Positions 3,043-33,948 of a stretch of DNA of 64,000 nucleotides are shown in pieces. Source of the DNA: Chthoniobacteraceae bacterium (GTDB taxonomy: Bacteria > Verrucomicrobiota > Verrucomicrobiia > Chthoniobacterales > Chthoniobacteraceae). Location of the stretch: contig JAQGOL010000037.1 in the NCBI GenBank assembly GCA_028293625.1, positions 124,001-188,000 of the forward strand, written 5' to 3'. The notes below the pieces were generated by a model. It ran no database searches, was not told the origin of the DNA, and worked only from the letters and a program-made list of their open reading frames with translations. Position 1 is the stretch's first letter; each line of letters opens with the position of its first letter. The position numbers and the translations under genes were made by a program.

Positions 3043-6000
3043 ATGAACAATCCCTCTCCTGGAAGCAAACGTCTCCCACTCGCCCGCTCCATCCAAATCC
3101 TTGCGCTTGCCGGCGTCGTATTTGGCGCATCGCAAGCCTCAGCCGACTATTTTTCTGTTGATACAATCACAGGCAACGCGGACTCGGGCGTCGATAGCGG
3201 TCGCAATTACGTTTCCATCAACAACATCGTCGGTGGAGATGTCATAGTAAACGGAGTCACTTTCGCCGGTGCCGAAACGTCCGGGACAGGCTGGACATTG
3301 AACGGTGCCGGTGCGCGGTTTGACGCGGGCGGCAATCATACGGGCATTACCGACAGCATCGCCTCGCTTTTTGATAACTTCCAATACAACGGGGCTCCTG
3401 CGGTCTTTAGCCTCAGCGGGCTCATCGCAGGCCAGACTTACCAGGCTACTTTCTACAACGAGGCATTCGGACTTGGCGCCGACCGCTCGCAAACCCTCAC
3501 CGCTGATTTGGGCGCTTCGATCCGTTATAACGAGGATGCCGTCAACGCCAGTGTGCTCAAATACACATTCGTGGCGACTGACACCACGACGAATATTTCG
3601 GTTTCCCCGGCCGTTGTTGCCAACACAATGCATTTTTACGGATTCAGCAATGAGATCCTAAATGCCTGGTCGCCAGCCTCCGACAGCTCATGGGATACCG
3701 CGGCAAACTGGTCAACCGGCGTGATTGCCAACGCGGTTGGGTCCACCGCAAATTTCGGCGCGCAGGCAGCCGCCACCGCTGTAACCCTTAATAGTGCGAA
3801 AACGGTTGGCTATCTGAGCTTCGGAGGAACTTCCTCCTATAATATATCCGGCACCGGCTCGATCACATTGCAGGCTACAGCCAACACCGGGTTATCGAGC
3901 GTCGATGTGGCGACCTCCGCCATTCATACGATTGGCACAAGCGTTGTCCTGACCGGCGATACTCAAAAAATCGGGGCTGGCAACCTTCACATCCAGGGAA
4001 ACGTTTCAGGCACGGGCGGATTTATCGTCAATAGCGGCGTCCTTACCTTGAGCGGTACAAACAGCTATGAGGGAACGACCAGAATCAACAACGGTGTCCT
4101 GCGCGTAGGCGCGTCGATCTCAATTGAGAACCCTGGATTTGAACTTCCCAACCAAGGCAACGGTGGCTTTACCTATGCGCCATCCGTGCCGGGCTGGACG
4201 CTTGCCGGCAATACCGGAATCGCGCAAAATAACAGTCCCTGGTATGTTCCGGCCGCGGTCGATGGAGTGCAGGCCGCATTTCTTCAAGGCGACGATGGCA
4301 CGGGGGCTGGCATCTCGCAGACGATTAATGTCGATACCGCAGGTCTTTATAACATCGGCTTTCTGGCCGTCGGTCGCAATGGCAACGGCCCAAATGGCCT
4401 GATCGTCAAGGTTGATGGTATCACAGCCCTCACCCTGGCGGAGTCTCAGTTTGATAATCTGAAATGGCAGGATTTTGCAACATCGGCTATCAACCTCACG
4501 GCTGGTTCGCACACGATTTCATTTGTCGGCAATAATCAGCTTGTTGGAGATAAAACCACGGTGATCGACCGCGTGCAGATCGGCCGCACCGGCCTGAATA
4601 CAAACGCGATTCCCGATAGCTCCATTGTCTCGCTTAATAGTGCTAATTCCACGCTCGATCTGAATGGGAACAACGAAACGGTCGGCTCGCTTATCGGCGT
4701 TTCAGGCAGCAAAGTCTTTCTGGGCAACGGCACTCTGACCACAGGCGGCAATAACTCGGATTCAATTTACGCGGGCGTCATCGCTGGGGCAGGTGGCGTT
4801 GTGACCAAGACCGGCACCGGCACGCTGACATTGACAGGCATCAATAGCTATAGCGGCGGCACGAACATCAACGCCGGCAAATTTAAGAGCGTGCTTGCCA
4901 ATTCCGCGGGATCGGGCCGGGTCTTTGTCGCGGCCGGCGCGACCTGGGAGCTTGGCGGCGAGAACCAGACGGTGGCCGGACTTTCGGGCGCCGGAGCCGT
5001 TACGCGTAACACCGCGCTGACCGGAGCGGTGGTGGGACCTACCGTTTTCACCACCAACGCGGGCTCGGGCATATCGGGCGCGGCGAACTACACTCACCTG
5101 CTTGACTTCGGCGATGGCGCGGGCGCTGTAATAAATGGAGTTGCCTTCACCAGCGCCGGCAATAATGGCGGAAACTGGAGTCTGACCGGAGCTACCAATT
5201 CCGTTCCCGAAGTCGCCGGCGCGCCGACCGCTCCGACGTTTGTCGACGCCCCCAACGGGACCGGATTCAATCAGCTCTATCAGGACTTCTATTACAATGG
5301 CAATCCGGGCGAACTGAAACTCAACAACCTGATAGCAGGCGAAAATTACGAGGCCCGCCTTTACAACCGCGTCTGGGGTGGTCCGCGTGTGCAGACACTG
5401 ACTTTCGATGATGGGAGCGGCACCCCGGCCGGCTTTACGTTTGACCAGGATGCAACTTCAAATCCGAACTATATCAGCTATAAGTTCACAGCCACCGCGC
5501 CAACACTGACGATCACGGCTACCCCGCAGGCGCCCGGATCGAGTTTTCATTGGTATGGGGCGACCGTTGAACAGATTGTCCTGACGCCGTCGACGCTGAC
5601 AGTGGGCGACTCGAACAACTATACCTTCGACGGTGTGCTTAGCGGAATCAACAATCTGGCCAAACAAGGCACCGGCATCCAGACATTGGCCGGCGCCAAT
5701 ACTTATACCGGCACCACGTTGGTAAGCGGCGGCACTTTGCAAGTTACCGGTTCAATCAGCGGTACTACCAGCGTGACTGTTAACAACAACGCCACGCTCC
5801 AGATCGGCGGCACCGGCAATCGAATCGCCGATACTGCCCCAATCACCCTTGGAGGCAACGGCGCGGGCGGCACGCTTAGCATGCAAGGATTAAGCGCGCA
5901 GAGCGAAGTTCTTGGGGTGCTTAAATTAGGCGAGTCGTCCACCATCGACTTCGGCTTGGGCAACAGCGATACGCTCCTTTTCTCCAAGCTGACACTGGCA

Positions 6001-6297
6001 ACTTATTCCCTGGCCGTGTTCAACTGGACCGGCACGCCATACAACCTGTCTGAAACCGCCGATCATGGTGGCACCCAGGACCATCTCACCTTCGCTCTCA
6101 ATGTTGGCGCCACCGACGCCAGCCGTATCTATTTCTATTCCGACAACGGCGCGACCTTTTTGGGCAGCGGGAAAACCATTAACTACGGCGGCGGACAATT
6201 TGAAGTGGTCCCGGTTCCCGAGCCCTCGGTGAGCGCACTTGCCGCCTTGGCTCTGGGTCTTGCGGGCCTCCGCCGGCGGCGGAGGACGGCAAGATAA
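3043..6297 (+). CDS. PEP-CTERM surface protein with autotransporter-associated beta-strand repeats
   Basis: A 1084-residue secreted protein. The ATG at 3043 begins a clear signal peptide that ends around ASQASA; the frame is open further upstream, but that part does not look like protein. Modules in order: an unnamed jelly-roll-like module (about 36-205), an autotransporter-associated beta-strand repeat (about 323-355), a DUF642/CBM-like segment starting IENPGFELP (about 359-516), another repeat (about 582-616), a second copy of the first module (about 667-845) and a third repeat (about 868-902). The C-terminus is a PEP-CTERM sorting signal: VPEPS, a hydrophobic helix, then five arginines. 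Such tails are recognised by an exosortase, which is not encoded in this window. Likely role: extracellular matrix or surface display. The high Gly/Thr/Asn content is normal for the family. Confidence 0.88.
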   Translation: MNNPSPGSKRLPLARSIQILALAGVVFGASQASADYFSVDTITGNADSGVDSGRNYVSINNIVGGDVIVNGVTFAGAETSGTGWTLNGAGARFDAGGNHTGITDSIASLFDNFQYNGAPAVFSLSGLIAGQTYQATFYNEAFGLGADRSQTLTADLGASIRYNEDAVNASVLKYTFVATDTTTNISVSPAVVANTMHFYGFSNEILNAWSPASDSSWDTAANWSTGVIANAVGSTANFGAQAAATAVTLNSAKTVGYLSFGGTSSYNISGTGSITLQATANTGLSSVDVATSAIHTIGTSVVLTGDTQKIGAGNLHIQGNVSGTGGFIVNSGVLTLSGTNSYEGTTRINNGVLRVGASISIENPGFELPNQGNGGFTYAPSVPGWTLAGNTGIAQNNSPWYVPAAVDGVQAAFLQGDDGTGAGISQTINVDTAGLYNIGFLAVGRNGNGPNGLIVKVDGITALTLAESQFDNLKWQDFATSAINLTAGSHTISFVGNNQLVGDKTTVIDRVQIGRTGLNTNAIPDSSIVSLNSANSTLDLNGNNETVGSLIGVSGSKVFLGNGTLTTGGNNSDSIYAGVIAGAGGVVTKTGTGTLTLTGINSYSGGTNINAGKFKSVLANSAGSGRVFVAAGATWELGGENQTVAGLSGAGAVTRNTALTGAVVGPTVFTTNAGSGISGAANYTHLLDFGDGAGAVINGVAFTSAGNNGGNWSLTGATNSVPEVAGAPTAPTFVDAPNGTGFNQLYQDFYYNGNPGELKLNNLIAGENYEARLYNRVWGGPRVQTLTFDDGSGTPAGFTFDQDATSNPNYISYKFTATAPTLTITATPQAPGSSFHWYGATVEQIVLTPSTLTVGDSNNYTFDGVLSGINNLAKQGTGIQTLAGANTYTGTTLVSGGTLQVTGSISGTTSVTVNNNATLQIGGTGNRIADTAPITLGGNGAGGTLSMQGLSAQSEVLGVLKLGESSTIDFGLGNSDTLLFSKLTLATYSLAVFNWTGTPYNLSETADHGGTQDHLTFALNVGATDASRIYFYSDNGATFLGSGKTINYGGGQFEVVPVPEPSVSALAALALGLAGLRRRRRTAR

Positions 6298-6442
6298 CGC
6301 GTAAAGAAACGCGCACACCAGCAAGCGTGAGTCCGAACCGTGCACGGCTTGAAAAGCCTTGCAACGATGTTTGGCATCTTTCCACCCACCCGTTGGGCCA
6401 CCCGCTCACGTTGTCAGCTTGTCACCTTACCACCCTATCTCC

Positions 6443-8092
6443 TTGCCCTCCGCACCCGCTCTCCAATTTGATGTTGTAATCGCCGGCGGCGGTTTTGCCG
6501 CGGTATATTGCGCACGTGCCCTCGCACGGGGACTTGGCGACGAGGCACGTAATCGGGTTGCCCTTGTGGCGGATCAGAACTTCATGGTCTTCCAGCCGAT
6601 GCTGGCTGAAGTGGTCGGCGCGTCGCTTTCCCCTCGGCATGTCGTCAATCCCATTCGGCGCCTCTGCAGCGGAGTGACGGTGCTGCGCGGGAGCATCAGC
6701 TCAATTGATCTTCCGGCAGGTGCCATGCAGGTCAATGCGGGTGATTTTACGGGCAATGTTTCCGTGGAATTTAAACACCTCGTCCTCACTCTCGGCGGAA
6801 TAGTCGACCTCAGCCGTGTGCCTGGGATGACAGAACACGCCTTTTTGCTTAAAAACGTCGGCGACGCCCTTAAGCTACGTTCAACGATTATCGACCGGAT
6901 CGAAGAAGCCAATCTCACTTCCGACGCGGCGGCAATGGAACGGCTGCTTCGTTTTGTGATTGTGGGCGGCGGCTACTCGGGCGTGGAAACCGCGGGGCAG
7001 ATCCGGGATCTTGGCGATGAAATCCTCGGACTTTATCCACGGTTGCCCAAAGAATTGTTCCGCGTCATTTTGATCCATAGCGGTCCGCATCTGCTCCCGG
7101 AAATCAACGAGTCACTTGGACGCTATTGCGAGGAAAACCTGAAGGGCCGAGGTGTGGAAATCATTCTCGGATCGCGTGTTTCGGGGATGACCGCCAGCAA
7201 GGTTTATATCGGGGAGCGCTCTTTTGAAACGCATACGGTAGTCTCCACCGTGGGAAATGCGCCGCACCCGATGCTCGTGAGCCTTTGCAGCGACAACAGC
7301 ATTGAACTCGATCGGGGACGCGTGGTTACCGATGACACCTTGAAGGTAAAAGATCATCCCGGCCTTTGGGCCGCGGGCGATTGCGCGGCCGTGCCAATGC
7401 CGGTGAAAAACGCCCCGGTGAGCGAACCTGTCAAAGCGGCCTCCCCCTTCACGCCACAGCCGTTTTGTCCGCCTACCGCGCAATTTGCCGTGCGCCAGGG
7501 CACCCTTCTTGGCAAAAACCTGGCGAGCGTGCTTGGTGGAAAAGGCGAGGTCGAATCGTTTAAATTTACCGGACTCGGTGAGCTCGCCTCCATCGGCCAT
7601 CGGGCCGCGGTAGCCGAAATCATGGGGATGCAGTTCTCGGGGTTTTTTGCATGGTGGCTATGGCGGAGCATCTACCTGATGAAATTGCCGGGGCTTGAAC
7701 GCAAGCTGCGTGTGCTCATGGATTGGACGCTCGATCTGTTTTTCCCTCGCGATATTTCCCTCTTTCAATCGCGTCCCACCCAGCGGCTCAAGGGGATGCG
7801 CCTGGAAGTGGGCGACATCCTTTTTCATGCGGGTGAGCCGGCCTTTTCTTTTTACATCGTAAAAAGCGGTCGCATCGATCTGCGAAATCCTGATGGAACA
7901 CCTGCAAAGAGCGTCTATCCGGGGGACCATTTCGGAGAACGTGCGCTCCTGCATGATCGCAAATGGCAATTTACTGCCATAGCGGCCGAGTCGACCGAGC
8001 TGGTGGCGATCAGTGCCGGAGTTTTCGACTCGATTATCGACGCGGACAAGTCGATCCGCGATTTTCTCCTGACGACCGCCGCGTCGCATTGA
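6443..8092 (+). CDS. NDH-2-like FAD oxidoreductase fused to a cyclic-nucleotide-binding domain
   Basis: The N-terminal 420 or so residues are a type II NADH dehydrogenase-like pyridine nucleotide-disulfide oxidoreductase: FAD-binding VVIAGGGFAAVY at the start, a second dinucleotide motif FVIVGGGYSGVETAG, and the late FAD motif GLWAAGDCAAVP. The family passes electrons from NADH to quinone at the inner membrane face. The last 98 residues form a CRP/CNMP-type beta-roll (MRLEVGDILFHAGEP, FYIVKSGRIDL, GDHFGERALL). The phosphate-binding cassette lacks the usual PRAAT arginine (it reads WQFTAIA), so nucleotide binding is doubtful. No ATG fits: I place the start at the TTG at 6443, eight codons before the first strand; the frame is open from a TTG at 6359. 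The gene follows the PEP-CTERM gene and precedes the LptD-like gene on the same strand. Confidence 0.82.
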   Translation: MPSAPALQFDVVIAGGGFAAVYCARALARGLGDEARNRVALVADQNFMVFQPMLAEVVGASLSPRHVVNPIRRLCSGVTVLRGSISSIDLPAGAMQVNAGDFTGNVSVEFKHLVLTLGGIVDLSRVPGMTEHAFLLKNVGDALKLRSTIIDRIEEANLTSDAAAMERLLRFVIVGGGYSGVETAGQIRDLGDEILGLYPRLPKELFRVILIHSGPHLLPEINESLGRYCEENLKGRGVEIILGSRVSGMTASKVYIGERSFETHTVVSTVGNAPHPMLVSLCSDNSIELDRGRVVTDDTLKVKDHPGLWAAGDCAAVPMPVKNAPVSEPVKAASPFTPQPFCPPTAQFAVRQGTLLGKNLASVLGGKGEVESFKFTGLGELASIGHRAAVAEIMGMQFSGFFAWWLWRSIYLMKLPGLERKLRVLMDWTLDLFFPRDISLFQSRPTQRLKGMRLEVGDILFHAGEPAFSFYIVKSGRIDLRNPDGTPAKSVYPGDHFGERALLHDRKWQFTAIAAESTELVAISAGVFDSIIDADKSIRDFLLTTAASH

Positions 8093-8221
8093 TCAGCTTT
8101 AGCTGGCTGCAGACGGCTTAAATTGAGCGCGGATTGTGGGTTGGGCTTGGAGTTCCTTTCCTGGAAGCCCCTTTTCACTTGGCATCGTTCCAACCGGCTC
8201 GCTAGCTTGCGGCCCTCTTTC

Positions 8222-10714
8222 ATGAAGCGCCTGATACTTTGTTCCGCCCTTTTGCTGATGTGCAGAGCAGGGGCTCATGCGCAGTTTGGCAATTTTGATG
8301 ACATTCCCATCGAGATTGATTCGGAAGAAAAGAGCTTTGATAAGAGCATCGCGACGGCGGATAAAAATGTCGTCATCCGTTACGGCGAGATCGTGATTTA
8401 TTCTGATCACGCCCAATACAACCCCGAGACAAGGGATATTTTGGTCAGCGGCAATGTTCGCATTTACCGCGAAGGACGTCTTTTTACGGGCGAACGGGCC
8501 ATTTACAATCTTGAGACCAAGCAGCTCAGCGCCTCGGATTTTCGCGGCGAGTTTTTTCCCTTCAAGTTTGCGGGCGACTCGCTCAACACGCTTGGACCGA
8601 AGGGTTACCTGGTAAAAAACGGAATTTTCACGACAAGCGACAGTTCCCGGCCCGACTACTCGATTCGCGCGAGGACGGTGAAGGTCTACCCCAAGGATCA
8701 CATTGTGTTTAGCAATGTTAAGGTCTTCATTGGGCGCACGCAGGTCTTCTGGTTTCCGTATCTTTACCAGTCGCTGGTAAAGGATCAGGGCTTTCTGATT
8801 ACGCCCGGCTACTCGAGCTCACTCGGCGCGTTTTTACTGGGCCAGTATGGATTTCCATTGGGCGAGACGACCGCCAAATTCCGGCTCGATCTTTTTGCAA
8901 ACCGCGGAGTGGGCACGGGATTTGAGACGCGCTGGGACGACAAGTTAACGGAGGCAGCAGAGCCGACAGTTGAAAAATCGGTTACCAAGGGGACCGATAA
9001 AGGAAACTGGGGCCGGTTCCGCAGTTATTACATCAACGACGCAAAGCCCGGCACCAATAAGACGGCACTGGCGCGGGAGGATATCGATCCGAGCCGATAC
9101 CGGGTTTCGCTTCAGACGCGCACCTATCTGACGGAGGATATTTACGCGACCATCGACATTAACAAGCTCAGTGACGCGCGCTTTTTACAGGATTTCGAGC
9201 CGGGCGAATTTCGCACCAACCCGAATCCGGACAACGCGATCTCGATCACCAAATGGGACGAAAATTACACGGCGACGTTGACGGCCCGAAAGAACCTGAA
9301 CGAGGAAGTCTTCGATCAGACCGAGCGGCTTCCTGAAGGGGCGCTTGATATCAAAAGGCGCCCGCTTTTTGGGAGTCGTTTCTTTTACGATGGCGAAACG
9401 AGCGCGGGCTTTTACCGGCGCAACTTTGCCGGCGGTGCACTGGTGAGTGATTACGACACGTTCCGGGCGGATACCTTCCATCAGATCTCGTATCCGAATA
9501 CCTATTTTGGCTGGCTCTCAGTGGTGCCGCGGGCCGGGGTGCGCGGAACTTATTACGCAAACACCGGTTTTTACGAGACGATCACCACGACGTTTCCGAC
9601 CACGACGGTCACCACGATCATCCCTGGCACGACCAGCACCACCGTGACCAACGGAACAACGGTGATCACCACCGAATCGCGTCATACCAGTACCAGTCGA
9701 TCGAGCACGGGCGATGTGCGAACCACGGTTGAGAAAAACAATGCCACTGAAAGCGGCACGACTTCCAACACTTCGAAGTCGTCCAAAACCGAAACCCGGC
9801 TCGTCAGGGAAGGCTCGCTTTTCAGGCCTGTGGTCAACGCAGGGGTGGAGGCGTCGTTCAAGTTGTCGCGCGCTTTTGAGCAGGTCCAATCCCGCGCCCT
9901 GGGCCTTGATGGATTGCGCCACATCGTCCAGCCGTATGCAAATCTCTCGTTTGTCTACAGCGGCGAGGATCCGGTCAATATCCTGCAGTTCGACCGGCTT
10001 AATCGTTCCACCCAACTGCCGCCCATCGATTTTCCGCAGTTCAACACAATCGACTCCATCGATAACTGGAGCATTCTCCGCTTGGGGGTGCGCAATCGGC
10101 TCCAAACCCGGCGCGACAACATCACCCTCAACTGGCTGGAAATGGACACGTTTTTTGACGTGAACATCGATCGCCCGCAATTCGTGGGCGATGTCGCCCC
10201 CGATACCGGCACCTTTTCCAACGTCTTCAACCGGATCCGGTTCTCTCCATTACCCTGGGTGAATCTGACACTCGATTCGCAGATTCCTTTGCTTGACCAG
10301 GGATTTACCGAGGTCAACACAGCGCTCAATTTCCTGGTCAACGAGAACCTTTCGCTGACGGTTGGAAACCGCTATCTGAGCGGCGACCCTGTCATTAAAT
10401 CGAGCAGCCTTTTAACCATGGGCGGTTACCTAAGGCTCAATGATAACTGGGCGATCGGCGCCCGTGGCCAGTATGAATTTGAAACCAGCCTCCTCGAATC
10501 GCAACGGTATGAAATCCATCGTGATCTTTCGAGCTGGGTCGCCTCTTTTGGCTTTGTCGTCATCAATAACCGAAACGAAACGACAGGCCGCACGGTGAGC
10601 GACTACGGCCTCACACTCACCTTTACCTTAAAGGATCTCCCTGCCGTGCGGATCCCCCTCGCACTCGATCCTGATAGTCTCGCGGGCGGCGGCGGCTCCG
10701 GTAAAAACCGTTAG
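8222..10714 (+). CDS. LptD/OstA-like outer-membrane protein
   Basis: An 830-residue protein from the ATG at 8222, with a signal peptide ending near AGAHA-Q. An OstA/LptA-like region follows (about 25-130: NVVIRYGEIVIYSDHAQYN, ILVSGNVRIYREGRLFTGE, ERAIYNLETKQL), then the LptD core (VKVFIGRTQVFWFPYLYQS) and a long beta-barrel with alternating aromatic strands up to the C-terminus. LptD inserts lipopolysaccharide into the outer leaflet, so this gene points to an LPS-type outer membrane. About residues 451-526 are an unusual Thr/Ser-rich low-complexity stretch, probably an extracellular loop. The protein lacks obvious paired cysteines of the E. coli type. It could be a divergent LptD paralogue rather than the essential copy, since verrucomicrobial genomes may carry more than one. 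Confidence 0.75.
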   Translation: MKRLILCSALLLMCRAGAHAQFGNFDDIPIEIDSEEKSFDKSIATADKNVVIRYGEIVIYSDHAQYNPETRDILVSGNVRIYREGRLFTGERAIYNLETKQLSASDFRGEFFPFKFAGDSLNTLGPKGYLVKNGIFTTSDSSRPDYSIRARTVKVYPKDHIVFSNVKVFIGRTQVFWFPYLYQSLVKDQGFLITPGYSSSLGAFLLGQYGFPLGETTAKFRLDLFANRGVGTGFETRWDDKLTEAAEPTVEKSVTKGTDKGNWGRFRSYYINDAKPGTNKTALAREDIDPSRYRVSLQTRTYLTEDIYATIDINKLSDARFLQDFEPGEFRTNPNPDNAISITKWDENYTATLTARKNLNEEVFDQTERLPEGALDIKRRPLFGSRFFYDGETSAGFYRRNFAGGALVSDYDTFRADTFHQISYPNTYFGWLSVVPRAGVRGTYYANTGFYETITTTFPTTTVTTIIPGTTSTTVTNGTTVITTESRHTSTSRSSTGDVRTTVEKNNATESGTTSNTSKSSKTETRLVREGSLFRPVVNAGVEASFKLSRAFEQVQSRALGLDGLRHIVQPYANLSFVYSGEDPVNILQFDRLNRSTQLPPIDFPQFNTIDSIDNWSILRLGVRNRLQTRRDNITLNWLEMDTFFDVNIDRPQFVGDVAPDTGTFSNVFNRIRFSPLPWVNLTLDSQIPLLDQGFTEVNTALNFLVNENLSLTVGNRYLSGDPVIKSSSLLTMGGYLRLNDNWAIGARGQYEFETSLLESQRYEIHRDLSSWVASFGFVVINNRNETTGRTVSDYGLTLTFTLKDLPAVRIPLALDPDSLAGGGGSGKNR

Positions 10715-27164: not shown

Positions 27165-29624
27165 ATGAGCTTAAATATCGAGCCTTACCCGACGAGACGG
27201 ATCAAAATCATTCAGATCGCCCTCCTTGGCTTCCTGTATTATGGCGCCGCTTGGATCGGCCTGAGGTTTTCGTTTGAAAAAAGCAACGTTTCGCCGGTCT
27301 GGCCTGCGGCAGGATTCGCATTGGCAGGGATGCTGTCACTCGGATGGCGTGCCTGGCCAGCGATCTTTCTCGGTGCGTTCGCGGCGAACGCGACAAATTT
27401 ATTGAGCGGTCCCGCCCTCCCATTTTGGACAGTTTCCTGGGTCTCGGCCGTAATCGCCTTTGGTAATACGGTGGAGGCGCTCTTTGGCTGGTTTTTATAC
27501 CGTCGATACTCACAAAAAATCCGGGAAGAAGCAGCGCCGGACCTTTTCGTCGAGGGAATCAACGTCTTCGAATTTGCCGCCCTGGCGTTGTTAATGTGCC
27601 TCTCCGGCGCATTCATCGGGGTAACAACGGTCTGCGCAGCGGGACTCGCTCCCTGGATTCAATACCGGCTGCTCTGGCGACTCTGGTGGTTTGGCGATGC
27701 CTCCGGAGTTCTGCTTGTGACCCCTTTCGTGCTGGCCTGGGCGCAAGCGCCTCGAATCGAGGGGGCAAAGTGCGTTTGGAGGGAGCCGGCCCTGACTTTC
27801 CTTTTGCTTGCACTAAGCTGCTGGTGGGGCTTTGGACGAAGCCGGGAAATGCAATCGTTCCCATACCTGACCATCATCGTTCCAATGGTCTGGATCAGCA
27901 CGCACCTCGGCCTGCGCGCAGTAACCGGCGGCCTCATATTTGTCTGGGTGTACGCAGTCTGGCAAACCGTTCGTCACGCCGGTCTTTTTGTCGGCATTCC
28001 GGAGCATGCATTGTTGCTCCGTTTATTGCTGTTTCTTTGGGTGGCATCCCTCACGAGTCTGGCTCTGGCAGGCACAGTCGAGGCTTTGAAGAAAAGCGAG
28101 GCGAACCTTCAAAAGCTCAATAAACAGTTGGAAAATCGCGCCACAAAGCACACCGCAGAATTGCAAAGCTCCCATGAAGCGCTCCAAGCCGAAAGCTTTG
28201 ACCGGGCGGAGGCAGAGAAAACCCGGGCACACCTGGCGGCCATTGTCGAATTTAGTCTGGATGCCATTTTCAGCAAAACCGTGGACGCGGTTGTTACAAG
28301 CTGGAACCGTGGCGCTGAGCAGCTCTACGGTTATACGGCCGCTGAAATGGTCGGCAAATCCGTCTCCTTATTGATCCCGCCCGACTATAAGGATGAACTT
28401 GCAAGGATGATGGCGAGTATCCGGCAGGGCGAGCCAATCAAGCATTACGATACAAAACGAGTCCGCAAGGATGGCCATCGCATCGATGTCTCGCTAAGCA
28501 TTTCGCCGATCTATGATCAGAGCGGGCAACTTATTGGATCCTCAACGATTGCCCGTGATATCGCCGAGCGGATTCGGGTCGAAGAAGCACTGAAGGAGAG
28601 TCAGGAGCGGCTTAAACTGGCATTGGACGCGGCGCAACTTGGTACCTGGGACCTCGATCTGGTGACTCACAATGTCATCCATTCGCTTCGGCACGATCAA
28701 ATCTTCGGTTACGCCGAGGCGCTCCCGGAATGGAGCTATGAACGATTTCTAACCTGCGTCCATCCGGAGGATCGCACCCGGGTTGACTCTGAGTTTCAGG
28801 AGAGTGTGGCCGCTGGTCGCGATTGGGCTTTTGAATGCCGCATCTTCCGGGCCGATCATTCGCCCGGTTGGATCTGGGCTTGCGGCATTCTTTTGAAAAA
28901 CAAAATGGGAAAACCCGCGCGAATGGTCGGAATAGTCGCCGACATTACTGAGCGCAAGGAAGGGGAACAGAAACTGAAAGAGGCTCTTAAAAAAGAAGTG
29001 ATTCTGCGTCGAGAGATCCACCATCGGGTCAAAAACAATCTCCAGGTGATCACCAGCCTGCTCTATCTCCAATCCGTTCACCTCAGCGATCCCAGAATCG
29101 TGCAATTGTTACGCGAAAGCCAGTCGCGCATCCGCTCCATCGCACTCATCCACGAGTTACTCTGCCGCTCCAAAGATCTGGCGAAAATTCCAGTCGCCGA
29201 ATATGTCCGAAATTTGACCATGGATCTTTCAGTCGCCTATCGCGTCAATCCGGACGTGATCTCCTTTAAGATCCATGCGGAAGGCATTTTCCTCAGCCTT
29301 GACCCGGCTATCCCGTGCGGATTGATCGTTAACGAGCTGGTCTCCAACTCCCTCAAACACGCTTTCGTCGATGGACGCGCAGGCTGGGTCGCCATTGATC
29401 TGCAACCCGTCGATTCCGGCCTTCTAAGATTAAGCGTGCGCGACAACGGACTTGGATTGGCACCCGGATTTGACCTCGAAAACGTGCGCACCATGGGATT
29501 GAGATTGGTGCGCGACCTGGTGCGGCAGCTGAATGGGACGCTCGCACTCAGCTACGTGCATGGGACACAGATAACAATCACTTTTGCCAATTCGGACACG
29601 CTCGACTTTACGCCTCGTCGCTGA
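27165..29624 (+). CDS. MASE1-PAS-PAS sensor histidine kinase (HisKA_2 type)
   Basis: 819 residues. A good ribosome binding site, GGGGGAG (27153-27159), precedes the ATG. Residues about 10-310 are a MASE1 multi-helix membrane sensor (FEKSNVSPVWPAAGFALAGM, WPAIFLGAFAANATN). A coiled-coil follows, then two PAS domains (about 353-470 and 480-605), then a HisKA_2 dimerisation domain with the phospho-acceptor in REIHHRVKNNLQ (H619/H620) and a HATPase_c domain (LIVNELVSNSLKHAF, DNGLGL). It should autophosphorylate on a membrane or cytosolic cue and pass phosphate to a receiver protein. Its C-terminal kinase half is strikingly similar to that of the hybrid at 32524-33948. Possible partner: that hybrid protein. 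Confidence 0.9.
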   Translation: MSLNIEPYPTRRIKIIQIALLGFLYYGAAWIGLRFSFEKSNVSPVWPAAGFALAGMLSLGWRAWPAIFLGAFAANATNLLSGPALPFWTVSWVSAVIAFGNTVEALFGWFLYRRYSQKIREEAAPDLFVEGINVFEFAALALLMCLSGAFIGVTTVCAAGLAPWIQYRLLWRLWWFGDASGVLLVTPFVLAWAQAPRIEGAKCVWREPALTFLLLALSCWWGFGRSREMQSFPYLTIIVPMVWISTHLGLRAVTGGLIFVWVYAVWQTVRHAGLFVGIPEHALLLRLLLFLWVASLTSLALAGTVEALKKSEANLQKLNKQLENRATKHTAELQSSHEALQAESFDRAEAEKTRAHLAAIVEFSLDAIFSKTVDAVVTSWNRGAEQLYGYTAAEMVGKSVSLLIPPDYKDELARMMASIRQGEPIKHYDTKRVRKDGHRIDVSLSISPIYDQSGQLIGSSTIARDIAERIRVEEALKESQERLKLALDAAQLGTWDLDLVTHNVIHSLRHDQIFGYAEALPEWSYERFLTCVHPEDRTRVDSEFQESVAAGRDWAFECRIFRADHSPGWIWACGILLKNKMGKPARMVGIVADITERKEGEQKLKEALKKEVILRREIHHRVKNNLQVITSLLYLQSVHLSDPRIVQLLRESQSRIRSIALIHELLCRSKDLAKIPVAEYVRNLTMDLSVAYRVNPDVISFKIHAEGIFLSLDPAIPCGLIVNELVSNSLKHAFVDGRAGWVAIDLQPVDSGLLRLSVRDNGLGLAPGFDLENVRTMGLRLVRDLVRQLNGTLALSYVHGTQITITFANSDTLDFTPRR

Positions 29625-29831: not shown

Positions 29832-30218
29832 ATGAGCATAAATGATGACTCAGATACCCGGAGTTTAACAACGGTACCAGCCGGCGAGACGAACACCTCC
29901 CCGCCTGCACCCAACATCGGTTTTGTGGCGCTCAGTAAGTTCGTCATCGCCAACGGAATGGCGCCCCAGGTGAAGGACGCCTTTCGGAACCGTCCGCATC
30001 TGGTTGATGGAGTCCCGGGCTACGTGCGCATGGAGGTCCTCAGCCCTGTGGAACGGACTGAAGAGATCTGGCTCCTGACCTATTGGACAGATGCCGGGAG
30101 TTTTAAGGCCTGGCATCACAGCCATCTCTATCACGACTCCCACAAGGGTATTCCCAAAGGATTAAAGCTGGTGCCGGGGGAAACAAAAATTACGGAATTT
30201 GAGCACGTCTGCAGTTAA
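29832..30218 (+). CDS. Antibiotic biosynthesis monooxygenase / haem-degrading (HmoA-like) protein
   Basis: 128 residues from the ATG at 29832. After a disordered Thr/Pro-rich start, residues about 28-125 form a dimeric ferredoxin-like ABM fold: ALSKFVIANGMAPQVKDAF, VPGYVRMEVLSPVE, EEIWLLTYWTDAGSFKAWHH, SHLYHDSHKGIPKGLKL. The W-T-D-x-x-S-F-x-x-W pattern and following histidines match HmoA/IsdG-type haem monooxygenases, though many ABM proteins have other roles. It lies 10 bases before the cobalamin sensor and probably starts that operon. No bacteriophytochrome is nearby to use a biliverdin product, so its job here is open. Confidence 0.75.
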   Translation: MSINDDSDTRSLTTVPAGETNTSPPAPNIGFVALSKFVIANGMAPQVKDAFRNRPHLVDGVPGYVRMEVLSPVERTEEIWLLTYWTDAGSFKAWHHSHLYHDSHKGIPKGLKLVPGETKITEFEHVCS

Positions 30219-30228
30219 GTTTGAAGCC

Positions 30229-31302
30229 ATGAGTCTGATTTCTCTCGAGGTCAGCGAAGCCATTCTGTGTCAGCGGGCGGCAATCGCCGAGAAGCTCGCG
30301 GCAAGGGAATTCGCCCGGCGGCCTGAACTTGAGAAGCGGTATGGCCGGGTTGGCCGCGACAAATGCGTGCAGGATGCGGGCTATCACCTCTCCTATCTCG
30401 CCGAGGCGGTCGCGACGGATAATCCCAACCTGTTCGCAGACTACATTGGCTGGACAAAAGTCATGCTCGCCCGCCGGGGAGTGCCGACTAGTGATCTCAC
30501 TTTGCATTTGGAATCGATGGGAGAAGTATTGAATGAGATCCTTCCCGCTGCGCTCAGCCTGCCCGCCCGGCAAATCGTCGAGCAAAGTCTGCTGCGGCTT
30601 CCGGATTATCCTGATGACCTGCCAAGTTTCATGGGGCCAGGCCACCCGCACTCGCTTCTCGCGCACCAATACCTTCAGTCACTGCTGCGCGGCGAACGCC
30701 ATATTGCGAGTCAGCTGATTCTTGATGCCGTAAAGCGCGGGGTCACAATCAAGGAAATCTACCTCGACGTCTTTCAACGCACCCAATACGAGATCGGACG
30801 CCTCTGGCAGACCAATCAGATCTGCGTGGCGCGGGAGCATTACTGCACGGCCGCCACGCAGCTGATTATGTCACAACTTTATCCCTACATCTTCACAGGA
30901 GAGAAGCACGGGGGCACCTTCATCGGCACCTGCGTCGCGGGAGATCTTCACGAGATCGGTGTGCGCATGATCACTGACTACTTTGAGATGGCCGGCTGGG
31001 ACACCTATTACCTCGGCGCCAACACCCCCCATGAGAGCGTGGTCCGGACAGTCACGGAGCGCAAAGCCAACGTGCTCGGCATCTCCGCCACGATCACCTA
31101 CCACGTGCACGACGTGGAGCAGCTTATTCGAAAAGTGCGCGCGGAGCCGACATGTGGCGGAGTGAAAATTATTGTGGGCGGATATCCTTTTAACATTGCA
31201 CCAGGTCTTTGGCGCGCGGTTGACGCGGACGGTTCGTCACGCGATGCCGCCGGTGTGGTTACGCTTGTTGAAGAGCTCACCGGAAGGAAGGCCACCTCAT
31301 GA
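30229..31302 (+). CDS. Stand-alone cobalamin-binding sensor with CarH-like W-x9-EH photoreceptor motif
   Basis: 357 residues from the ATG at 30229. The first 130 or so residues are an unrecognised helical domain (RYGRVGRDKCVQDAGYHLSY). A B12-binding-2 four-helix module (about 140-225) follows, then a Rossmann B12-binding domain (about 230-345). The cobalamin lower-ligand motif DxHxxG is D239-L-H241-E-I-G244; later cobalamin contacts are ISATITYHV and VGGYPF. W193 and E203-H204 form W-x9-EH, the signature that caps adenosylcobalamin in the CarH photoreceptors. Unlike CarH there is no MerR DNA-binding domain, and the residue after the Trp is Gln, where T. thermophilus CarH has the light-state His132. 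It overlaps the following kinase by ATGA, so I infer that it signals to that kinase. A methyltransferase-related B12 carrier is the alternative. Confidence 0.85.
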   Translation: MSLISLEVSEAILCQRAAIAEKLAAREFARRPELEKRYGRVGRDKCVQDAGYHLSYLAEAVATDNPNLFADYIGWTKVMLARRGVPTSDLTLHLESMGEVLNEILPAALSLPARQIVEQSLLRLPDYPDDLPSFMGPGHPHSLLAHQYLQSLLRGERHIASQLILDAVKRGVTIKEIYLDVFQRTQYEIGRLWQTNQICVAREHYCTAATQLIMSQLYPYIFTGEKHGGTFIGTCVAGDLHEIGVRMITDYFEMAGWDTYYLGANTPHESVVRTVTERKANVLGISATITYHVHDVEQLIRKVRAEPTCGGVKIIVGGYPFNIAPGLWRAVDADGSSRDAAGVVTLVEELTGRKATS

Positions 31303-32537
31303 TTGGATCAAATACTGGAAAGGGAATCGCCGTGCTCTGCGACGCGGAGGGAATCGTGCAATCCATTGTGCGCGATGAGCTCGATCTCGCCTCGCGAGTG
31401 CCGCCCGGGGCAAGCGTTTTGCGGCTGGCAGACCCGGTTGATGAGGAAAAGGCGCGCCAGTTCCTGCTCGCACTGCAAAGCCGCAAGGCCACGTTTGACT
31501 GGGAAATCACGGTGCGCTGGCAGGGCGAACTCACTCCATTGCATTTCGCCGGAGGCCAGGTGGAAAGCGGTTTCCTTGTGGTAACCGCGCTCTCCCGAGA
31601 CAGTCTTGCGCTCGTTAATGAAGAATTAATGCGCATCAACAACGAGCAAACAAATGCGCTCCGCTCGACGGCTAAAGAACTGGCCGCGCTGGGCCGCTCC
31701 CGTCCCGAACGCGACGGCCTCTTCGACAAATTAACCCGAGTCAACAACGACCTGGCCAACCTGCAGCGTGAGCTGGCCAAAAAGAACTTTGAACTTGCTA
31801 AACTCAACGAGCAAAAAAATCTGTTTTTAGGTATTGCCGCACACGATCTGCGCAGTCCTTTGGGTGTCATACTGACCTACAGCGAGTTTCTGGAAGCGGA
31901 AATCGGACCGACGCTCACCGTGGAATCGCGAGCGTTTGTTTCGATCATCAAGGATACGAGCGAGTTTCTGCTCCGGCTCATTGACGATCTTCTGGATGTG
32001 TCGCAGATCGAATCAGGCAAGTTAAACCTCAATCTCCAGCCAACCAGCCTCACTGAACTGGTGAGCCGCAGCGTGGCCCTTAACCGGTTACTGGCCGAGA
32101 AGAAACAGATTCGCATGGTATTTGCCGCCGACGCAACACTGCCCACCCTTTTGATTGACCCCGGCAAGCTCGATCAGGTGCTTTATAATCTGCTGACCAA
32201 CGCGGTGAAGTTTTCCTATCCCCATACCGAAATCAGCGTTCGTTTAACCCGGGAAAGCGAGCATGCCGTGATTACCGTGACCGATCACGGGCAGGGTATC
32301 CCCGCCGACGAACTTGAAAAACTCTTCAAGCCCTTCAGCCGCACCCGGGTGCGCAGCACTGGCGGGGAAGCCAGCACCGGTCTTGGGCTCTCAATCGTGC
32401 ACCGGATCGTAGAAGGCCACCATGGCACCGTCAGTGTCAAATCGATGGTGGGCAAGGGCTCTTCGTTTCAAGTCCGATTGCCTTTGATTGAAGCGGCCAA
32501 AGGCGCAAATTCGTCTTCCTGTTATGGACCTGGTTAA
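31299..32537 (+). CDS. Soluble histidine kinase coupled to the cobalamin sensor
   Basis: 412 residues, without a transmembrane segment. Residues about 8-100 look like a small PAS-type domain (GIAVLCDAEGIVQSIVRDEL, GQVESGFLVVTALSRD). A long coiled coil (about 102-175) leads into HisKA with phospho-acceptor H182 (GIAAHDLRSPLGVI) and HATPase_c (LYNLLTNAVKFSYPHT, VTDHGQGIPADELEKLFKPF, TGLGLSIVHRIVEGHHG). Its ATG overlaps the stop of the cobalamin sensor gene (ATGA), and it overlaps the next gene by 14 bases, so the three are translationally coupled. Inference: the B12 sensor changes this kinase's activity by direct contact, and phosphate passes to the receiver domain of the next protein. Confidence 0.9.
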   Translation: MIGSNTGKGIAVLCDAEGIVQSIVRDELDLASRVPPGASVLRLADPVDEEKARQFLLALQSRKATFDWEITVRWQGELTPLHFAGGQVESGFLVVTALSRDSLALVNEELMRINNEQTNALRSTAKELAALGRSRPERDGLFDKLTRVNNDLANLQRELAKKNFELAKLNEQKNLFLGIAAHDLRSPLGVILTYSEFLEAEIGPTLTVESRAFVSIIKDTSEFLLRLIDDLLDVSQIESGKLNLNLQPTSLTELVSRSVALNRLLAEKKQIRMVFAADATLPTLLIDPGKLDQVLYNLLTNAVKFSYPHTEISVRLTRESEHAVITVTDHGQGIPADELEKLFKPFSRTRVRSTGGEASTGLGLSIVHRIVEGHHGTVSVKSMVGKGSSFQVRLPLIEAAKGANSSSCYGPG

Positions 32538-33948
32538 GCAAACGCGGATGCGAATTCTGGTCGTCGATGATGATCCCGTGGCGCTTGCTGCCATGCGAAG
32601 GCTGCTCTCTGAAGCCGGACATGAGGTGATGATTACCAACACCGGCGAAGAAGGGTTGCGCCTGGTGCGCGAACTGTTGCCTGATCTGGTTTTGATGGAT
32701 GTTAATCTGCCCGGTATCAGCGGCATGGAGGCCGTCAAGAGGCTCAAGGCGGACCCTGCCCTGAGCTCGATTTTTGCCGTGAACGTGTCGTCGAGTTTAA
32801 CCACTTCGGAAAACCAAGCATCCGGTCTCAACGCGGGAGCTGACGGCTATATTGTCCGGCCCATTCCCAACCGGGAATTACTCGCGCGTGTGAATGCATT
32901 TCTTCGTCAAAAAAAAATGGCGGATGCCCTGCGCGCCAGCGAGGAACGGTTCTCAAATTCATTTGAATTCGCGCCCATCGGCATCGCTCTGGTGGCAATG
33001 GACGGGAAATGTTTGAAGGCTAACCGCGCACTCTGCGAAGCGCTCGGTTACTCTGAAGCCGAATTGCTCACCCGCTCATTCCAGGAGATCACGGATCCCG
33101 ACGATCTGGAAATCGATCGGGAGAACCGGCAAAAACTGGTCTCCGGAGAAATCCGCTCCTATCAGATAGAGAAACGCTATCTGCATATCAGCGGCCATAG
33201 CTTGGTTGTATTATTGAATATTTCAATAGTCCGCGATATCCATCGCGAACCGCTCTATTTCATCCTTCACATTCAGGACATTACCGAGCGCAAACGGACT
33301 GAGAAGAAGCTTCAGGAAGCCTTAAAAAAAGAAGCGCTTTTGCGCAAAGAAACCCATCATCGGATCAAAAACAACCTGCAGGTAATCGCCAGCCTTCTTT
33401 ACCTTCAATCCCAGCATGCCACCGACTTGGCCACGATGGAAGTCTTGCGCGAAAGCCAGCATCGTACCCGCTCTATCGCGCTCATTCACGAAAAGCTCTA
33501 TCAAAGCAGCGACCTATCAAAAATCGAACTTTCCGGCTACTTGCAGGAGTTGGCGGCGAGCTTGTTTGAATCGTATCGGACTCCCTCCGGGAGCGTCGGT
33601 TTCAAAATCAGCGCTGAAGGCATTTTTCTCGAACTCAACGCGGCGATCCCGTGCGGTTTGATTCTCAACGAACTGATTTCCAATGCGCTAAAGCATGCCT
33701 TTCCGGAGGAAAGACGCGGGGAGATCGTCATCAATTTCAAAGAAATCACGAACAATACGCTCAAGCTCAGCGTTTGCGACAATGGCGTCGGCTTGCCGGA
33801 GGGGTTTGATCCTGCAAAAGTGACGACGCTTGGAATCAAGCTGGTATGCGATCTTACCAAACAGTTGGATGGAACAGTGGAATTTAGGAATGCGCGAGGA
33901 ACAACGGTGGAGATCACTTTTCCGAAGCCACAACCGGATGCGAGTTGA
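32524..33948 (+). CDS. Receiver-PAS-HisKA_2 histidine kinase (hybrid output kinase)
   Basis: 474 residues from the ATG at 32524. An N-terminal receiver domain (about 9-125) has the acidic triad D15-D17 and phospho-acceptor D59 (LVLMDVNLPG); the conserved switch Lys is replaced by Arg (R112 in VRPIPN). A PAS domain follows (about 138-255), then HisKA_2 with ETHHRIKNNLQ (H278/H279) and HATPase_c (ILNELISNALKHAF, CDNGVGLPEGF). It therefore can receive a phosphate and also autophosphorylate. The final acceptor is not in this operon. The kinase half closely resembles that of the MASE1 kinase 3 kb upstream, suggesting duplication. An upstream TTG (32488) is an alternative start. Confidence 0.88.
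   Translation: MDLVKQTRMRILVVDDDPVALAAMRRLLSEAGHEVMITNTGEEGLRLVRELLPDLVLMDVNLPGISGMEAVKRLKADPALSSIFAVNVSSSLTTSENQASGLNAGADGYIVRPIPNRELLARVNAFLRQKKMADALRASEERFSNSFEFAPIGIALVAMDGKCLKANRALCEALGYSEAELLTRSFQEITDPDDLEIDRENRQKLVSGEIRSYQIEKRYLHISGHSLVVLLNISIVRDIHREPLYFILHIQDITERKRTEKKLQEALKKEALLRKETHHRIKNNLQVIASLLYLQSQHATDLATMEVLRESQHRTRSIALIHEKLYQSSDLSKIELSGYLQELAASLFESYRTPSGSVGFKISAEGIFLELNAAIPCGLILNELISNALKHAFPEERRGEIVINFKEITNNTLKLSVCDNGVGLPEGFDPAKVTTLGIKLVCDLTKQLDGTVEFRNARGTTVEITFPKPQPDAS

Follow-up and report, generated by a model that had tools for sequence, protein, structure and literature searches.

Photocobilins join a CarH-like B12-binding domain to a bilin-binding globin, and Zhang et al. 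(PMC10979010) described groups of these proteins that differ in whether the B12 domain is N-terminal or C-terminal. SasPcob from Saccharothrix syringae (PDB 8J2W, dark; 8J2X, light) stands alone without an output domain; its Asp270 contacts the A–C rings of biliverdin, and on illumination it ends as aquo/hydroxo-Co(III)balamin and not as a bis-His form (PMC10979010). AbDPcob from an Acidimicrobiaceae bacterium (PDB 8J2Y) carries the same two sensory domains fused to a GGDEF diguanylate cyclase. In AbPcob the globin fold is kept yet biliverdin is bound poorly, at ~20% occupancy, and an isolated cyclase can be switched on in vitro by stand-alone photocobilin domains that have been lit and act in trans (PMC10979010). 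Fusions of globin and B12 domains also occur in the photoglobin family (Schneider et al. 2022, as described in PMC10151467), for which CXQD is a published motif, and BBAG-2 globins are found in clusters with a separate B12-binding protein (PMC10151467). The B12 module is common to CarH of Thermus thermophilus and CtMerR (8JBS/8JBT), and SignatureFinder gives GxxW, EH, GxxH and GxxxP as the light-response motifs of such cobalamin-binding domains (PMC11796333).

Here we analyse a 64,000 nt window of a Chthoniobacteraceae bacterium genome (GCA_028293625.1, contig JAQGOL010000037.1, positions 124,001–188,000, forward), in which one gene encodes a photocobilin of globin–B12 order, a member of the photocobilin/photoglobin family. 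An initial annotation had proposed that the protein may represent a different class of B12 sensor; that class is already defined by SasPcob and AbPcob (PDB 8J2W/8J2X/8J2Y; PMC10979010), and since photocobilins with a C-terminal B12 domain have been reported, the globin-first order is known rather than new.

Results

The N-terminal domain is a photoglobin

The photocobilin gene (30229–31302, on the + strand, as are its parts and the neighbouring genes at 29832–30218, 31299–32537 and 32524–33948) encodes a protein of 357 aa from ATG to TGA. The top PDB matches of this protein were the photocobilin entries 8j2w and 8j2x (5e-26), which aligned as two blocks in swapped order, with query residues 148–336 on chain positions 10–192 and residues 37–103 on positions 252–318, so that the domain order is the reverse of that in SasPcob. 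Residues 1–137 alone retrieved 8j2w at 7e-7, followed by weak allophycocyanin and phycocyanin matches, and a profile built from seven homologous domains reached 3.5e-8 against photocobilin, with phycobiliproteins following from 2.9e-7. The Pfam Phycobilisome family was matched by five of these seven domains (best E 6.5e-10) and, below threshold, by residues 5–105 of the window protein (E 0.0095).

An AlphaFold2 model was built from a three-sequence alignment of the window, Pontibacter and Chloroflexi proteins, single-sequence prediction having been dropped as useless (pLDDT 42). Up to residue 130 the block pLDDT was 73–94, and the predicted N-terminal domain resembled allophycocyanin B (Z 16.1, rmsd 2.2–2.4 Å, 127 residues) and smURFP (Z 15.9). 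The B12 half was modelled with low confidence (pLDDT mostly 55–80, and <50 past residue 318), and a Foldseek search with the whole model ranked CarH-type, photocobilin and corrinoid B12 domains so close together that it did not discriminate among B12 proteins.

Taken together, the sequence, profile and predicted-fold matches to photocobilin and phycobiliproteins identify residues ~1–130 (30229–30618) as a phycobiliprotein-like, putatively bilin-binding globin, i.e. a photoglobin. What had been described as an unrecognised 130-residue helical domain is thus recognisable, both from its sequence match to the biliverdin domain of SasPcob and from its predicted allophycocyanin fold (Z 16); this bilin domain and the kinase operon described below had both been missed. 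The reported absence of a MerR domain was borne out, as Pfam found none and residues 1–127 adopt the globin fold instead in the predicted structure.

The B12 module groups with photoreceptors

The C-terminal part consists of a B12-binding_2 four-helix bundle (residues 145–217; 30661–30879; Pfam E 3e-13) and a B12-binding Rossmann domain (residues 230–338; 30916–31242; Pfam E 2e-22). All four motifs of the light-responsive signature are present: GxxW (G190–W193) and EH (E203–H204) within the adenosyl cap, G190xxW193-Q194-x8-E203H204 (30796–30840); GxxH (G238–H241) within G238-D-L-H241-E-I-G244 (30940–30960), where H241 aligns as the lower axial cobalt ligand; and G263xxxP267 (31015–31029). In the 357-aa reading frame W193, Q194, E203–H204 (exactly W-x9-EH), D239, H241 and G244 all lie at the positions first assigned to them. 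Since G190, W193, E203, H204, H241 and P267 are identical in all nine aligned N-globin proteins (the window protein included) and in an Ilyobacter protein, the W-x9-EH motif is more than a chance occurrence.

A tree was computed from 37 B12 modules, 22 of photoreceptor type (N- and C-globin photocobilins, CarH-like proteins and B12–kinase pairs) and 15 of corrinoid/MetH type. The CarH-model matches from the same phylum all fell below the NCBIfam cut-off and were therefore used only as CarH-like rows. Every W-x9-EH row was separated from the corrinoid/MetH rows with a support of 100/100, the motif being present in 22/22 of the former type and 0/15 of the latter. A common clade with corrinoid methyltransfer proteins, which the initial annotation had named as one of the results that would refute it, was not found, and the evidence supports its reading of the protein as a MerR-less, CarH-like light-sensing B12 module. 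N-globin and C-globin photocobilins were not joined in this tree, in which the deep forks among photoreceptor groups are weak.

Residues of both chromophore sites are retained

In the 8j2w alignment the deposited chain index equals the numbering of PMC10979010 minus six, an offset that W61, E71 and H72 fit. By this alignment SasPcob Asp270 and Trp296 correspond to D49 and W75, Trp61 to W193 and Glu71/His72 to E203/H204, and H241 occupies the lower-ligand position. W75 (30451–30453) is thus the counterpart of a residue in contact with the biliverdin D ring and the corrin, and D49 closes the CXQD motif, C46-V-Q-D49 (30364–30375). Across ten aligned proteins the pocket Trp is kept in all and the Asp in eight; the Pontibacter homologue has Gly in its place, and AbDPcob has His. 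The window protein accordingly shares with SasPcob the W-Q adenosyl cap, EH, the E/DxH motif and the pocket Asp and Trp, besides standing alone without an output domain, and, with its globin–B12 fusion and CXQD motif, it looks like a photoglobin family member.

C46 aligns with the bilin-attachment Cys (CXRD) of the phycocyanin alpha subunit CpcA. The equivalent residue is Cys in the Azospirillum and Skermanella homologues and Ser in those of Chloroflexi and Pontibacter, whereas SasPcob has no Cys there.

The residue after the cap Trp is Gln in seven of nine aligned N-globin proteins and in SasPcob, as opposed to Tyr in AbDPcob and His132 in CarH. It had been argued that with Gln in place of the CarH His the photochemistry must end differently. 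The end point does change, and a bis-His light state is not expected; the case is nonetheless a solved one, since SasPcob, which has the same Gln, ends as aquo/hydroxo-Co(III).

Homologues are scattered

Full-length homologues that share the globin–B12 order occur in a Chloroflexi MAG (48%), Pontibacter (42%), Azospirillum plasmids (46–48%) and Skermanella plasmids (37%). By contrast, none of 56 other close genomes held a full-length copy, and a sample of 388 genomes from the phylum contained only the window's own. This scattered distribution suggests horizontal spread. The same phylum also yielded six unfused B12 proteins carrying GxxW-x9-EH, five of them adjoined by a histidine kinase, and at one of these five loci a separate globin-like gene lies in between. 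In one same-phylum genome (locus L059, 2261–4574) the system is split as in the BBAG-2 clusters and includes a kinase: genes for a W-x9-EH B12 protein, a globin-like protein (~154 aa, weak photoglobin-profile match, E 2e-4) and a histidine kinase lie in tandem on one strand; in the window the globin and B12 domains are fused.

On an Ilyobacter polytropus plasmid (3533–5576) a W-x9-EH B12 protein with a divergent ~150-residue N-terminal region is followed by a GGDEF gene; this organism is an anaerobe, in which biliverdin from heme oxygenase is not expected. In Pontibacter diazotrophicus (5679–9077) the photocobilin gene is divergent from a short-chain dehydrogenase gene and a photolyase/cryptochrome-like gene (identified by eye).

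The photocobilin gene overlaps a histidine kinase gene

The photocobilin stop codon overlaps the start (ATGA, 31299) of a histidine kinase gene (31299–32537) encoding a novel N-terminal sensory region, HisKA and HATPase_c, and this gene is in turn overlapped by one for a receiver-PAS-HisKA_2-HATPase protein (32524–33948). These are the proposed partner and the proposed phosphoacceptor, respectively. Scans for promoters and terminators gave results at chance level. The surroundings of a Streptomyces relative are of STAS/PP2C type and so differ from this kinase operon.

The partner kinase recurs. Immediately downstream of the Chloroflexi homologue lies a gene for a kinase with 45% identity over 391 residues, sensory region included, itself followed by a receiver-domain gene (translation read by eye). 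The N-terminal region of the 31299 kinase has no Pfam family match; its profile weakly matched (~1e-6) the gene that follows the homologue in A. brasilense and in A. argentinense, and in a plasmid-wide search only such Azospirillum loci were matched. No partner kinase was found next door to the Pontibacter and Skermanella homologues and, as the former also lacks the biliverdin Asp, neither bilin binding nor kinase output is universal in these proteins. The photocobilin–kinase pairing may already be recorded in Schneider et al. 2022, and we claim no priority for it.

HisKA_2 kinases flank the photocobilin gene on both sides (27165–29624 and 32524–33948), and their PAS-HisKA_2-ATPase halves are 43% identical over 340 aa, a similarity that suggests duplication.

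Both chromophores can probably be made by the host

In the same genome a heme oxygenase gene immediately precedes one for a bacteriophytochrome, and an ATP:cob(I)alamin adenosyltransferase is also encoded; from these gene families, biliverdin and adenosylcobalamin can probably both be made by the host. The heme oxygenase, bacteriophytochrome, a response regulator and a hybrid kinase lie in a row (3811–8760 of their locus), a second bilin-based light-sensing system.

An ABM-fold (IsdG/HmuQ-like) monooxygenase gene of uncertain role (29832–30218) ends 10 nt upstream of the photocobilin gene. Its product keeps the catalytic Trp and His but has Ser where IsdG/MhuD have their catalytic Asn (alignment read by eye), and no ABM-type gene was seen beside the annotated photocobilin homologues. 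On these grounds, and given the canonical heme oxygenase elsewhere in the genome, it was not adopted as a dedicated biliverdin source.

Discussion

The best overall explanation, to which we assign a probability of roughly 85%, is that the window protein is an N-globin photocobilin that binds adenosylcobalamin and a bilin, is switched by light and acts on the 31299 kinase in trans. Adenosylcobalamin would be held base-off/His-on through H241, W193 and E203–H204 would cap its adenosyl group, and a bilin, most likely biliverdin, would lie close to D49 and W75 in the N-terminal globin. The Co–C bond would be broken by green light, or by red light taken up by the bilin, and, given Gln and not His after the Trp, the product should be aquo/hydroxo-cob(III)alamin, the form reached by SasPcob. 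The helical bundle may then rearrange and alter the dimer; through protein–protein contact the altered dimer would change the activity of the translationally coupled kinase, which would in turn phosphorylate the receiver encoded by the next gene (32524). We infer chromophore occupancy, and likewise photolysis, bilin sensitisation, quaternary change and in-trans control from the biochemistry of SasPcob/AbDPcob and CarH. Where AbDPcob has a fused GGDEF domain, the window protein would signal through a separate kinase, and relative to CarH and CtMerR a globin is present and the MerR domain is absent.

Other readings of the protein were weighed against this one. It could be a light sensor using B12 only, with CarH-like adenosylcobalamin photochemistry and a bilin-free globin that serves as a structural or partner-binding module. 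The poor biliverdin occupancy of AbPcob, the Asp lost in Pontibacter and the unfused W-x9-EH proteins that adjoin kinases without a globin in several same-phylum genomes all fit such a sensor; retention of D49 and W75, the intact CXQD motif and a genome that can probably make biliverdin speak against it, and we regard it as unlikely. We give still less credence to a sensor of B12, redox state or ligand that informs the kinase of cobalamin or bilin availability, not of light. While no sequence feature proves the use of light in vivo, the W/EH adenosyl cap, the bilin site and the kinship to measured photoreceptors all favour light, and there is another bilin photoreceptor in the genome. Least probable by far is a corrinoid carrier for methyl transfer: the sub-threshold NCBIfam matches to MtgC (67 bits, cut-off 370) and MtbC (48 bits, cut-off 350) point that way, against which stand the separate grouping of the corrinoid/MetH rows, none with W-x9-EH, the fusion to a photoglobin and the failure to find a methyltransferase gene nearby.

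The light-switched photocobilin also admits a stronger form, in which the bilin would be bound covalently through Cys46, a dedicated kinase would be switched in trans, photocobilin, kinase and receiver protein would form a complete B12–bilin two-component operon, and the pair would recur in at least three phyla. This we hold only tentatively, as a proposal that probably claims too much.

The characterisation of photocobilins dates from 2024, and the kinase with the recurring N-terminus is a concrete candidate for the natural target of a stand-alone member. As C46 is absent from the crystallised photocobilins, the locus is also suited to asking whether bilin attachment is covalent in some members of the group. 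Its added value thus lies in the kinase operon and in the Cys at the bilin site.
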